Assembly (NCBI RefSeq): GCF_000963885.1
Contig: NZ_BALE01000017.1
Location: 124,001 to 188,000, forward strand
Length of the DNA: 64,000 nt
Direction of reading: 5' to 3'
Source: Tanticharoenia sakaeratensis NBRC 103193
Lineage (GTDB): Bacteria > Pseudomonadota > Alphaproteobacteria > Acetobacterales > Acetobacteraceae
The notes under the pieces were generated by a model. It was not told the DNA's origin and did not search any database. It saw only the letters and a program-made list of their open reading frames with translations. Positions within the stretch are counted from its first letter, which is position 1, and the number at the start of each line of letters is the position of its first letter. Position numbers and translations under genes: made by a program. Positions 26,930 through 31,275 of the stretch are shown here, piece by piece.

Positions 26930-27496
26930 TCAGGCTGCGTCGGCGATATCGTGATCGATCGCATGGGCAAGGGTGGTCATCAGTCGCCTTGCACCATGTG
27001 CGCTCCCGTCGACCTCCGCGGGCGCGACATGCAGCCCATCCGGGAGCTGCGTTACCGTGCCCGGACGATACGGTACGCGCGTCATGGGAATGCCGCAGGC
27101 TGACAGCAATGCCAGGTGAGCGCTTGCGCCTACGGTGATGACCGCCTGAAGATTCTGAAGACGGCGCAATGTCTCACGCAGATGTGGAACGCAGAGCGCT
27201 GGTGCGTCGCCAGCCATCCCGGAAAGTGGCGTTGGGATGCGCACTGTCCGGCTGGTGTCGGACGGCGCGAAGATGGACTGGCGATCGGGCGCGAGCTCGG
27301 ACACGATGATGACGAGCGCGGTGGTGTCGCAGGAAGGAGGCGGCACCGGAGCGGACTGAGCATCTTCGACGAGCCCGGTCCAGCTTAGGGACGACGAGCT
27401 GCCGTTGGTCGGCTGAACACACACGGCGCATACAGTTGCCGCATCGTCATGCCTCCGGCCTGACAGTAAGGATGGGTCTTGAAGAGTATCGGTCAC
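26930..27496 (-). CDS. Divergent uracil-DNA-glycosylase-fold protein
   Basis: A 188-residue protein. The C-terminal half (LRRLQNLQAVITVGASAHLALL and the following DGLHVAPAE) resembles the C-terminal part of family 4/5 uracil-DNA glycosylases (LxxVVALGxxAHxAL ... SYHPSR). The middle SAPVPPP and VIIVSELAPD recall the NAPVP ... LLIVGLAPG block. The catalytic GLAPG and H-[PC]-S-R motifs are not conserved and the iron-sulfur Cys set is incomplete, so glycosylase activity is doubtful. Its start overlaps the NYN gene stop as ATGA. Family assignment is my inference from pattern. Confidence 0.55.
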   Translation of the reverse strand: MTDTLQDPSLLSGRRHDDAATVCAVCVQPTNGSSSSLSWTGLVEDAQSAPVPPPSCDTTALVIIVSELAPDRQSIFAPSDTSRTVRIPTPLSGMAGDAPALCVPHLRETLRRLQNLQAVITVGASAHLALLSACGIPMTRVPYRPGTVTQLPDGLHVAPAEVDGSAHGARRLMTTLAHAIDHDIADAA

Positions 27497-28095
27497 AGTT
27501 CGGTATCCTCGTCGACATCCAGGTCGGCGGGATGCCGCACCGGGGTCGGACGGGGACGACTGTCGATTGTGCGACGGGTAAAGGCGCTCGCGATATCAGC
27601 GAGTTCGACGAAGCTGTCCACCTGGCGCCGCAGATCGTCTCCGATCAACGGAGGCGATGCGCGCAACGACGAGACAGCCGTCACGCGTGTCCCGCGGCGC
27701 TGGACGGCATCGACCGCACGCCGCAGGTCTGAGTCTCCGCTGAATATCACGGCATGATCGAGCTGGTCAGCCTGTTCCAGAAGATCGACAGTCATCTCCA
27801 CATCCATGCTGCCCTTGATACGCCGTCTTCCTGAATGATCCGTAAACTCGCGCGCGTTTTTTGTGACCAGCATATAGCCGTTGTAGGAGAGCCAATCGGT
27901 CAGAGGTTTGAGCGGAGAATAATCATCGGTTTCGGGCATGGCGGCATAGTAATATGCTCTCAGAAGATCCGACTTTGAACGGAAGAACTCCAGAAGGCCT
28001 CGATAATCCACGTCGAAACCGAGGCTTTTCGACGTATAGTATAAACTGGACCCGTCGATGAACACGGCGGTTCGTTCGGTCTGTCGAAGTATCAC
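27493..28095 (-). CDS. NYN-domain (LabA/DUF88-like) putative ribonuclease
   Basis: A 200-residue PIN-like fold protein. The acidic active-site residues are visible: D14 in VFIDGSSLYY, D98 and D104 in GSMDVEMTVDLL, D121 and D123 in FSGDSDLRRAV. The usual Asn after the first Asp is Ser (DGSSLY). NYN/LabA proteins are predicted metal-dependent RNases; the family member LabA acts in cyanobacterial circadian output. The last 40 residues are a charged tail. It is coupled to the UDG-fold gene by an ATGA overlap and is divergent from rpoZ across the A+T-rich region. Confidence 0.88.
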   Translation of the reverse strand: MILRQTERTAVFIDGSSLYYTSKSLGFDVDYRGLLEFFRSKSDLLRAYYYAAMPETDDYSPLKPLTDWLSYNGYMLVTKNAREFTDHSGRRRIKGSMDVEMTVDLLEQADQLDHAVIFSGDSDLRRAVDAVQRRGTRVTAVSSLRASPPLIGDDLRRQVDSFVELADIASAFTRRTIDSRPRPTPVRHPADLDVDEDTEL

Positions 28096-28585
28096 GTTTT
28101 ATCTCCATGAAGACGTCATGCGATCTCGGAAAACTTATTATATTGGTGCGGAATAAAGTGGGGTGCCTGCGACAATCGGGAACTCGGGCTCGAGCGGGCA
28201 GGCTGGTTTGAGATATCGGTGTGATATAGCCAATATTTTGTGGTTCAGAACAGACCTCCGAGGTCAACAGATTCTCACAAAATGTCTTAAATACGGTAAA
28301 AATCAGGCCGCCATCTGATTACTGCCAGAGAAAATCAGACATATGATACATTATGTCGTCTATTCGATGCGATTTTTTATGATTCGTGAGGTTTTCGTTA
28401 AATTCTGTATTAACCGTTACGGTCTGCCCATGGGGCGCGCATCGGCATCATCCCTGACGACCAGCCTGTCAATCGCGGATGGTGGCATTCTGATTGCTCC
28501 GGGGCATGTGCCGTGGTAGGAGTGCACGCTTATCACGCGCAAAAGCGCACCGCTCCGCATCGTATTTTCAAGAGGTTGCCCCTTC
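28096..28585. promoter_or_regulatory. A+T-rich divergent regulatory region between the NYN gene and rpoZ
   Basis: About 490 bases without a convincing gene. The part from about 28130 to 28415 is visibly richer in A and T than anything else in the window. It contains AATCAG at 28301-28306 and 28333-28338 and its complement CTGATT at 28315-28320, and an interrupted palindrome GTTAA-N8-TTAAC at 28397-28414. Promoters for both flanking genes must lie here; I cannot fix a -35/-10 pair with confidence. Confidence 0.6.
28397..28414. promoter_or_regulatory. Interrupted palindrome GTTAA-N8-TTAAC
   Basis: Perfect 5-bp half-sites separated by eight bases, upstream of rpoZ. It resembles the alphaproteobacterial CtrA motif TTAA-N7-TTAA but the spacer is one base too long, so it may serve another dimeric regulator or be chance in A+T-rich DNA. 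Confidence 0.3.
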
Positions 28586-28984
28586 ATGGCGCGCGTTACC
28601 GTCGAAGACTGCATCGAGAAGATCCCCAACCGCTTTGAGCTCGTGTTGCTGGCTGCCCAGCGTGCGCGTGGGCTGTCGCGTGGCGAGGAAATGACGATCG
28701 ATCGCGACAACGACAAGAATCCCGTCGTTGCCCTGCGTGAAATCGCCGATGACAAAGTGTCTCTCAACGGCCTTCGTGACGATCTGGTCCGGTCGCTGGC
28801 ACGGGCTCCCGAGCCCGAGCCGGTCGATGAGGAAGTTCTGGACCTGATCCCGACGGACCAGAACATCTTCGGTCTGCAGGATGTATCCGCGGAAGAAGAG
28901 CAGGCGCATGCTTCGGAAACGATGTCGATGGATGACGTCGATGCATCTGTCGAGGCCGAGCTTGGCGGCCGGGCACGGCGCTGA
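28586..28984 (+). CDS. rpoZ: RNA polymerase omega subunit
   Basis: A 132-residue omega subunit, which aids RNA polymerase assembly and forms part of the ppGpp site in bacteria that use it. The conserved N-terminal helix region reads [33 protein letters not shown], followed by [12 protein letters not shown]. The C-terminal acidic tail is longer than in E. coli, as in other alphaproteobacteria. Its stop codon overlaps the presumed CTG start of rsh. Confidence 0.96.
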
Positions 28985-31275
28985 TCGTCCGCGTTCGACA
29001 CCAGACTGACGCGACGCTCGCGTCTCATCCCGGTGGAGACACCGGGCATCAGGTTTCTGCGGTTCCGGCGCCTGACGCGGCGATTGCCGGGCTGCGGAAC
29101 CGGATCGCCAGCTATGATCCGGATGCTGATCTCGACCTGATCGACCGCGCCTATGCCGCCGCGGAGCGCGCGCATCGCGGGCAGGCGCGAGATAATGGCG
29201 ATCCCTACATCAGTCATCCCATAGCGGTTGCGAATATCCTCGCAGGCTTCCGGATGGACGTGACATCGATTGCCGTCGGGCTTCTGCACGACACGGTCGA
29301 GGACACGGCTCTTTCGCAGCAAGGGCTGCGCGACCAGTTCGGCGAGGATATCGCGACCCTGGTCGACGGGGTAACCAAGCTTACACGTCTCGAGCTGCAG
29401 TCGGACCGCACGAAACAGGCCGAAAACTTCCGCAAGCTCGTCCTTGCGATGTCACGCGATATCCGCGTGCTGATCGTCAAGCTCGCCGATCGTCTCCATA
29501 ACATGCGCACGCTGCATTACGTGCAGCGCCTCGATCGACGGCAGCGCATCGCACGGGAAACGATGGATATCTACGCGCCACTTGCCGAGCGCATAGGTAT
29601 GGATCGGGTCAAGACCGAGCTGCAGAACCTGTCGTTCGCACAGATGGAGCCCGAGGCGCATGAAACGATCAGCGCCCGGTTGAACTACCTGCGGGGCCAA
29701 GGTGCGGATGTGATCGAGCAGGTCCGGCGCGAGCTCTCCGCGCTGTGCAGCGAAGCTGGCCTGTCCGAGATCGAAGTCACAGGGCGGGAGAAAACCCCGT
29801 ACTCCATCTGGGAGAAGATGCAGCGACGCAACGTTGCCTTCGAACAGCTCTCGGACATCATGGCATTTCGCGTGCTCGTCCCATCCAGGGACGCCTGTTA
29901 TGTCGCGCTTGGTGCCGTTCACGGCGCATACCCGGTGATCGCGGGACGCTTCAAGGACTATATCTCCACGCCCAAGGCCAACGGCTATCAAAGCCTCCAT
30001 ACAGGCGTGACGTTGCGCGAGCCGCGCAATCAGAAGATCGAAGTCCAGATCCGCACGCCCGAGATGCACGACCTCGCGGAAAACGGCGTCGCGTCGCATT
30101 GGTCCTACAAGGAGCGCGGGAGCACTGGCGCATCCGTCAACGAGACCGCAGCCTTTGGTCTGCACAAGTTGCGCTGGGTGCAGGATCTGCTCGAGATCCT
30201 CGAAGACAGTCAGGCGCCCGACGAGTTTCTCGAGAACACGAAGCTCGAGCTCTATCAGGATCAGGTGTTCTGCTTCACCCCGAAGGGCCAGCTCATTTCG
30301 CTGCCCCGGGGCGCGACACCCGTCGATTTTGCCTATGCCGTGCACAGTCAGGTGGGCGATGCCTGCGTCGGGGCCAAGGTCAACGGTCGCCTGCTTCCAT
30401 TGCGCCACGAACTTCAGAACGGCGATCAGGTAGAGATCATGACCGCGCGCGGCGGTACGCCGTCGCCGTCGTGGGAGCGTTTTGTCGTCACTGGCAAGGC
30501 GCGTGCGCGCATCCGCCGCTTCGTGGCCGCCCAGCAGCGTCAGACCTATATCGACAACGGCCGCGCCGCACTTGCGAAGGCGTTCCGCCAGGAAGGCGTG
30601 GACGGCAGCGAGAAGACACTTGAGGGCGCGTTGCGCGACCTCAAACAGGCAACCGTCGACGATCTCTTTGCATCGGTGGGCAACGGTCAGATCGGCCCCC
30701 GTGATGTCGTCAACACCATCTATCCCGAACTCCGTCAGACACCCCGTGCACCGCGCATGGTGCCGGGTCTTGTCGCCCGTTCGACCACCCATGCGCGGCA
30801 CAAGCCCGGCACGGGATCGGTTCTGACAGGCATCGGGTCTGGCATCGCAGTGAGCTTTGCGAATTGCTGTCATCCACTGCCGGGCGATCCGATCGTAGGG
30901 ATCATTGCCCAGGGGAAGGGCATTTCGGTCCACACGGCGTCCTGCCAGAACCTCACGGCGTTCTCGGCCACGCCCGAACGGTTTCTGGAGATCGGCTGGA
31001 ATTACGAGACGCTCTCGCACGGAAACGCCGGCGCGCCCCATACGGGACGGATCAGTGTCATCGCAGCAAACGAGCCCGGTGTGCTCGCGACGTTGACCAA
31101 TGCCGTCAGCAAGCACCACGGCAGCGTCGTCAATCTTAAGATCGTCAATCGCCAGCTCGATTTCATGGAAATCCTCGTCGATCTGGAAGTGCGCGATCTG
31201 CAACACCTGTCGAACATGATTGCCGGCCTGCGGGCTGCGCAGGGTGTCATGCAGGTCGAGCGCGCCCGGTCGTGA
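28981..31275 (+). CDS. rsh: Bifunctional (p)ppGpp synthetase/hydrolase RelA/SpoT (probable CTG start)
   Basis: Makes and degrades (p)ppGpp in the stringent response. Domains in order: HD hydrolase ([22 protein letters not shown]), synthetase ([32 protein letters not shown]), TGS ([25 protein letters not shown]) and a C-terminal ACT domain. The first ATG (29254) lies inside the HD domain and would delete the conserved YDPDAD and SHP segments. Upstream in the frame there is no ATG, GTG or TTG, so the likely start is CTG 28981, overlapping the rpoZ stop as CTGA and giving 764 residues. CTG 29092 is a weaker option. Confidence 0.93.

Follow-up and report, generated by a model that had tools for sequence, protein, structure and literature searches.

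A strongly diverged homologue of the family 5 uracil-DNA glycosylases, predicted to be catalytically dead, encoded directly behind a NYN-domain protein beside rpoZ

The NYN gene, its overlapping partner and their neighbors

The window, by which we mean the whole 64,000-nucleotide stretch of Tanticharoenia sakaeratensis DNA that was analysed, carries two open reading frames on the minus strand where the initial annotation had placed them. The upstream gene (27493..28095, minus strand) encodes a 200-aa protein with a NYN domain (PF01936, E 1.1e-33; 117.3 bits against a gathering score of 24.2), a predicted ribonuclease of the LabA/PIN-like type that also matches 2qip (E 2.6e-6). Its acidic active-site residues, D14, D98, D121 and D123, are all intact, as had been claimed for them, and Ser17 occupies the usual Asn position of D-x-x-N, a motif that we take as the NYN signature. 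The window NYN protein is still predicted to be a metal-dependent endoribonuclease.

Directly behind it lies a gene of 188 codons with a GTG start (26930..27496, minus strand). By profile and fold, its product is a relative of the uracil-DNA glycosylase UDGb, and it is predicted from the loss of motifs to be catalytically dead. The stop codon of the NYN gene and the start codon of the UDG-like gene overlap by 4 nt (27493..27496, minus strand). This overlap had been described as ATGA; its length stands, and its sequence in the window is GTGA, with the GTG start.

The pair faces rpoZ and rsh across an A+T-rich region, just as first described. The divergent NYN and rpoZ genes are separated by 490 bp (28096..28585, no strand assigned) with 52% A+T, compared to 36% in the window. 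This intergenic region is followed by rpoZ (RNA polymerase omega; 28586..28984, plus strand; PF01192, E 3.8e-18) and, 3' of rpoZ, by the RelA/SpoT homologue rsh (29254..31275, plus strand; PF04607, PF13328, PF02824 and PF13291), in which the profile search found RelA_SpoT, TGS and ACT domains. The rsh frame was taken from its first start codon, with PF13328 matching from profile position 36, and the true start may lie upstream of the listed one. There was no Rfam match at the gathering score between 24000 and 32000 of the window, and a promoter and terminator scan gave 2 promoter-like sites, compared to 1.0 in shuffles, and 0 terminators. Convergent with the pair are an oxidoreductase molybdopterin gene (PF00174; 24311-26296, plus strand) and then a gene for a ferric-reductase-like membrane protein (PF01794; 26241-26924, plus strand), a couple that presumably resembles MsrP-MsrQ.

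The diverged glycosylase relative and its retained core

The 188-aa protein had no match in Pfam up to E 1 and nothing usable in NCBIfam, PADLOC or the PDB sequences. PF03167 was touched by only 1 member of the 21-member alignment A5 (E 0.029; L062 was omitted from alignments A5 and A6). When the PDB sequences were searched with profile A2, made from 11 sequences (the window protein and others like it), 2d3y was found at E 0.034; a 20-residue match to 4psj (E 7.1e-5) ranked above it and was taken as chance. In a profile-profile comparison, hhalign of A2 against A3, a set of 12 canonical UDGb sequences, gave E 6.5e-26 over 134 columns. BLASTP of the window protein against one canonical relative, a single comparison, gave E 1e-13 over 84 columns. 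In the canonical relative L007, the gene behind NYN matches PF03167 at E 9e-22, and the closest solved structure to the canonical UDGb encoded behind NYN is the Thermus family 5 UDGb, 2d3y (E 3.7e-44).

Structure prediction points the same way, and the models of the window protein and of a Gluconobacter member (L049) are both UDG-like. For the window protein, AlphaFold2 gave a weak model (mean pLDDT 57.5). Its best Foldseek match is 2d3y at E 4.4e-3, with none at E 0.001 or better, and 2d3y is also its best match in VIA-align (Z 9.8, rmsd 3.6 over 150 aligned residues). The L049 model (pLDDT 78, pTM 0.76) has 2d3y as its top Foldseek match (E 3.3e-6), with VIA Z of 12.6 to 2d3y and 12.8 to the family 4 UDG 4zbx. 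We conclude that the 188-aa protein is related to the family 5 uracil-DNA glycosylases (UDGb), though highly diverged from them, which bears out the UDG fold proposed in the initial annotation.

The window genome (G000) has three other UDG-superfamily genes (L043, L044 and L045): one of the UdgX type (TIGR03914, E 8.4e-83), one family 4-like that scores below the NCBIfam cut-off, and a third that matches no NCBIfam model strongly. When the window genome was searched with a canonical UDGb relative at E 1e-30, no match remained. No UDGb relative was found in viral contigs.

The catalytic motifs had been described as lost, and the window copy indeed has neither motif 1 nor motif 2, nor Asn120. 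We aligned 11 canonical, 19 dead (that is, predicted catalytically dead) and 5 intermediate sequences, including 6 of the 21 Gluconobacter copies; residue numbers are those of L007. The motif 1 columns N65, R66, T67, G68, R69 and F71 are gaps in the window protein and in all 19 dead copies, and the columns of G73 and D74 hold other letters or gaps. Asn120, which has a catalytic role in Thermus UDGb according to PMC5387724, is lost in 18 of 19 dead copies; the window has a gap there, and the sole Asn is in L068. The motif 2 columns S188, Y189, H190, S192, R193 and N195 read A, E, V, G, S and gap in the window, and Ser188 and Tyr189 are kept in 0/19 dead copies. The His190 column holds His in 10 of the 19 (Val in the window), so that complete inactivity in Gluconobacter is a prediction. 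All 6 tabulated Gluconobacter copies (L046, L047, L049, L052, L058 and L066) keep His190 despite the loss of motif 1 and Asn120.

The four Cys columns (17, 20, 115 and 130), which we take to be [4Fe-4S] ligands, are Cys at 3 of 4 positions in the window protein (column 115 is not Cys) and at no more than one position in each of the remaining 18 dead copies. The window copy is alone among the 19 in having the N-terminal CxxC and the fourth cysteine column (27419-27430 and 27191-27193).

The part of the fold that remains is a core of 44 residues (116-159; 27020..27151, minus strand) containing a strand, a helix, ACGIP, RPG and LPDGL. The stretch kept in the dead copies begins at the central strand, continues over A-H, A-C-G-I-P and R-P-G, and ends at L-P-D-G-L. 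Of the 77 columns in which at least 97% of 34 canonical enzymes agree, only 6 show that residue in 85% or more of the 19 dead copies, a comparison that includes 6 of the 21 Gluconobacter copies. LPDGL and H155 are present in all 19 dead copies and A154 in 17. D181 of LPDGL rises from 71% of canonical enzymes (n=34) to 19/19 dead copies, even as mean pairwise identity is 0.31 among dead copies versus 0.64 among canonical ones.

Conservation of the diverged pair in relatives, expected from the initial annotation, was found in Gluconobacter: all 21 loci have NYN, a 4-nt overlap, an open UDG-like frame and a divergent rpoZ. These loci were located via the UDG-like protein and not via NYN. The overlap is ATGA in 20 of 21; in the other it is TTGA, or 1 nt if the next ATG is the start. 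Rates were calculated as summed dN over summed dS from 54 of 210 Gluconobacter species pairs, which overlap one another and have dS of 0.05-1. For the UDG-like protein, dN/dS is 0.117 overall, 0.168 in the N-terminal part, 0.015 in the core and 0.081 in the tail; for NYN in the same 54 pairs it is 0.044. In 9 disjoint pairs, dN/dS is 0.038 in the core and 0.223 in the rest of the UDG-like protein, with 14/115 nonsynonymous/synonymous changes in the core and 272/356 in the rest (Fisher p 1.6e-13, each change being counted as independent). The core shows about as much synonymous divergence (pS 0.334) as other parts do (0.344), and thus the constraint acts on the protein. These rates describe Gluconobacter only, and the genus of the window is represented by one genome. 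Against simple decay stand the pair and its overlap, kept at 21/21 loci, the core dN/dS of 0.015 and the invariance of LPDGL in 19/19 dead copies.

History of the pair and of the NYN aspartates

NYN-UDGb is an old alphaproteobacterial pair, often beside rpoZ. At E 1e-10, 311 of the 397 genomes of the family contain NYN. NYN lies upstream of canonical UDGb, on the same strand and within 1.5 kb, at 26 of 30 loci (the best 30 of 95 class-level matches). At class- and phylum-level loci together, NYN is on the same strand and within 1.5 kb of canonical UDGb at 41 of 58 and absent from that distance at 17. A retrieved stretch includes rpoZ at 73 of 82 loci, of which 21 are from Gluconobacter. Open reading frames in this survey were taken from the naive first start, and some of the gene gaps there are artefacts.

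Of the 93 NYN rows of the survey, 35 have a canonical UDGb, 33 a dead one (21 from Gluconobacter) and 5 an intermediate one; 19 rows were classed as absent and 1 as unknown. These classes were assigned by hand from locus tables (from sequences for L003 and L005). Absent means no HMM match in any open reading frame of at least 50 aa within the retrieved stretch. Absent rows span nine genus codes, and one of them, L101, has an unmatched 107-aa open reading frame overlapping NYN by 4 nt. L099, L100 and L125 were classed as canonical though they miss at least one motif pattern; L099 and L100 keep most motif residues in the motif alignment.

In the NYN tree, one large group (support 95, 41 rows, 1 canonical row inside) takes in most of the dead and absent rows along with Gluconobacter and the window; for this group we assume the clade name acetic acid bacteria. 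Outside it are the absent row L102 and the intermediate L005 (G020), which is next to a canonical enzyme. The L005 gene (L005:1297-1884), seen in one genome, keeps the four cysteines and Asn120, with an in-frame loss of motifs 1 and 2.

NYN residue conservation was scored in 78 NYN rows. The Asn of D-x-x-N is present in 30 of 35 rows with canonical UDGb versus 1 of 18 with dead UDGb. We rejected a strict tracking of UDGb state by the change from Asn17 to Ser, since Ser also occurs in 5 of the 35 canonical rows and Asn in 1 of the 18 dead rows. Catalytic Asp residues are lost in none of these 35 canonical or 18 dead rows.

The aspartates have changed in several genera in which no UDG was found. 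In the UDG-less genera g49 (11 species) and g117 (3 species), NYN carries D14N together with D98N in all 14 species listed (L091, L092, L093, L101 and L198-L207), and no UDG partner was detected. These NYN genes remain constrained (dN/dS 0.0035 from 22 of 91 pairs, dS 0.03-1.2), and the g49/g117 protein is likely a conserved pseudo-nuclease. Elsewhere among the UDG-less or intermediate rows, the changes are D98E (L087 and L003), D121N (L191), D98N with D121E (L192), D14N with a changed C-terminus (L193) or D98S (L194). In L191-L194, NYN is beside rpoZ in UDG-less genomes of 1.7-2.0 Mb. A D13A change abolished the activity of a CRISPR-associated NYN protein, according to PMC11346440, and by analogy the Asp-changed NYN proteins are probably inactive as nucleases.

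Counted by UDGb state, Asp loss is found in 11 of 25 absent rows and 1 of 5 intermediate rows, with none among the 32 canonical or the 18 dead rows, and the NYN tree requires 6 Asp-loss changes. A rule that Asp loss follows UDGb loss was set aside: the tree-corrected test had 4 usable pairs and was not significant, and the two losses are confounded by clade. We therefore claim repeated Asp loss and not a causal tie to UDGb. Three further rows, L195, L196 and L197 (G076, G085 and G151), hold a different NYN/LabA-type gene with 41-45% identity over the C-terminal half, and rpoZ had no match in their retrieved stretches.

Possible roles of the pair and comparison with known systems

The conserved part of the dead glycosylase suggests that it is kept for a non-enzymatic job, for example holding a partner. 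We tentatively propose, as the likeliest reading and with a confidence that stops a little short of even, that the dead UDGb is a pseudoenzyme adaptor of NYN, which it would contact, and that it arose from the UDGb that many Alphaproteobacteria encode directly behind NYN. In the lineage leading to Gluconobacter and the window, motif 1, the catalytic Asn and almost all Fe-S cysteines disappeared from UDGb, and motif 2 was broken, with its His left in about half of the copies. Glycosylase activity would have gone with these changes. The C-terminal half of the UDG fold was kept, under tighter constraint at LPDGL. Translational coupling could ensure that the dead UDGb is made in step with NYN. The core might then serve as a module for binding protein or RNA, with NYN or the NYN substrate as its target, docking on NYN and positioning or restraining it.

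Several observations count against an adaptor. In 19 of 93 rows, no relative of UDG was detected behind NYN, and thus the UDG-like partner is not obligate. Gluconobacter copies keep the motif 2 His. H155 of the core is also conserved in UDGb that is not next to NYN; we had considered this residue as a mark of a NYN-binding face and rejected it, as it is conserved in 38 of 41 NYN-linked and 17 of 17 unlinked UDGb. The 19 rows also weigh against a strict two-part machine, in which the UDG fold recognizes a nucleic acid and NYN cleaves it, a pair that the initial annotation had suggested as a possibility, with an RNA-quality or stress role; some of the UDG-less NYN proteins, moreover, have themselves lost catalytic Asp. 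With NYN Asp residues lost in some UDG-less genera, the pair may not concern RNA cleavage at all.

We can also imagine, more doubtfully, that both members of the old pair turned non-catalytic in acetic acid bacteria and that their shared task is binding, whether to RNA, to the ribosome or to the polymerase beside rpoZ-rsh. The glycosylase would have died first and yet been kept as a strictly conserved module. UDGb would then have been lost in several genera, in which NYN would have lost its metal-binding Asp residues and stayed constrained.

Instead of an adaptor, the dead UDGb might be a nucleic-acid or protein binding factor that acts apart from NYN, the operon being merely inherited. The ancestral UDG fold binds nucleic acid, the core is under strong constraint, and canonical UDGb occurs without NYN within 1.5 kb at 17 of 58 loci. 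However, NYN is adjacent with an overlap at all 21 Gluconobacter loci found via the UDG-like protein, and the parts lost include motif 1, the loop that contacts nucleic acid and base. We consider a separate factor unlikely.

Still less likely, in our view, is a relict in slow decay whose remaining conservation is left over from the enzyme. Canonical, intermediate, dead and absent states do stand side by side on the NYN tree, UDGb was not found at the loci of nine genus codes, and the window genome has three other UDG-superfamily genes. A leftover is hard to reconcile with a core dN/dS of 0.015-0.04 and an open frame in 21/21 Gluconobacter, or with LPDGL being more conserved in dead copies than in enzymes. 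Decay is unlikely for Gluconobacter; it may apply to the short copies of 151-173 aa (L071, L073, L075 and L105) and to the window copy.

A new enzymatic activity might have arisen on the UDG scaffold, or some activity might be left in Gluconobacter; the polar catalytic residues could be the invariant H155 (window H127) and D181 (window D153) and the motif 2 His, which persists in 10 of 19 dead copies. We think either improbable: motif 1 is deleted in 19/19 dead copies, Asn120 is lost, and H155 is also present in 34/34 canonical enzymes and so may be structural. That the frame is kept only for translational coupling or NYN mRNA stability would account for the conserved 4-nt overlap and is hardly credible given a constraint on amino acids that is strongest about 110-150 codons from it.

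The NYN-UDGb pair is widespread in Alphaproteobacteria and often lies beside rpoZ, yet we found no paper mentioning both proteins. Searches joining 'NYN domain' with 'uracil-DNA glycosylase', and 'catalytically inactive' with 'uracil-DNA glycosylase' and 'pseudoenzyme', found none, with most subscription papers lying outside the search. A LabA/DUF88 literature search returned only unrelated uses of the word, and the main text of a G. oxydans RNA-seq paper contains neither 'rpoZ' nor 'uracil'. The active, dead and absent states of UDGb amount to a natural experiment: residues conserved after base excision became impossible may show the role of UDGb beside NYN. For the nuclease, the same question is raised by the NYN proteins of related genera that have Asn in place of Asp. 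A published Gluconobacter knockout collection (PMC8602642) makes the question testable in that genus.

NYN proteins have been noticed in other Alphaproteobacteria. In Rhizobium leguminosarum, the NYN protein RL1504, possibly a novel RNase, is required for root attachment, and RpoZ is RL1505 (both from PMC11406972); from these consecutive tags, the two genes are presumably neighbors. A LabA/NYN protein was also detected in a Bradyrhizobium proteome, according to PMC4287336.

Among known systems, UDGb (TTUDGB, PDB 2d3y) is homologous to the window protein over 134 profile columns and has the same fold, and the canonical UDGb of relatives holds the same operon position. In these relatives, motif 1 is G-A-N-R-T-G-R-P-F-T-G-D and motif 2 is S-Y-H-x-S-R-Y-N, whereas the window protein lacks both. 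The window NYN shares PF01936 and the Asp positions with the NYN/LabA PIN-like ribonucleases (VPA0982, 2qip; MARF1; CRISPR-associated NYN), one of which has Mn-dependent RNase activity according to PMC11346440. It differs from them in having Ser for the Asn of D-x-x-N and in forming an operon with a diverged UDG by rpoZ. UdgX, an example of a specialized UDG-superfamily protein, has the same superfamily fold as the window protein and is reported to excise uracil and cross-link to DNA; the window protein differs in being without the motifs.
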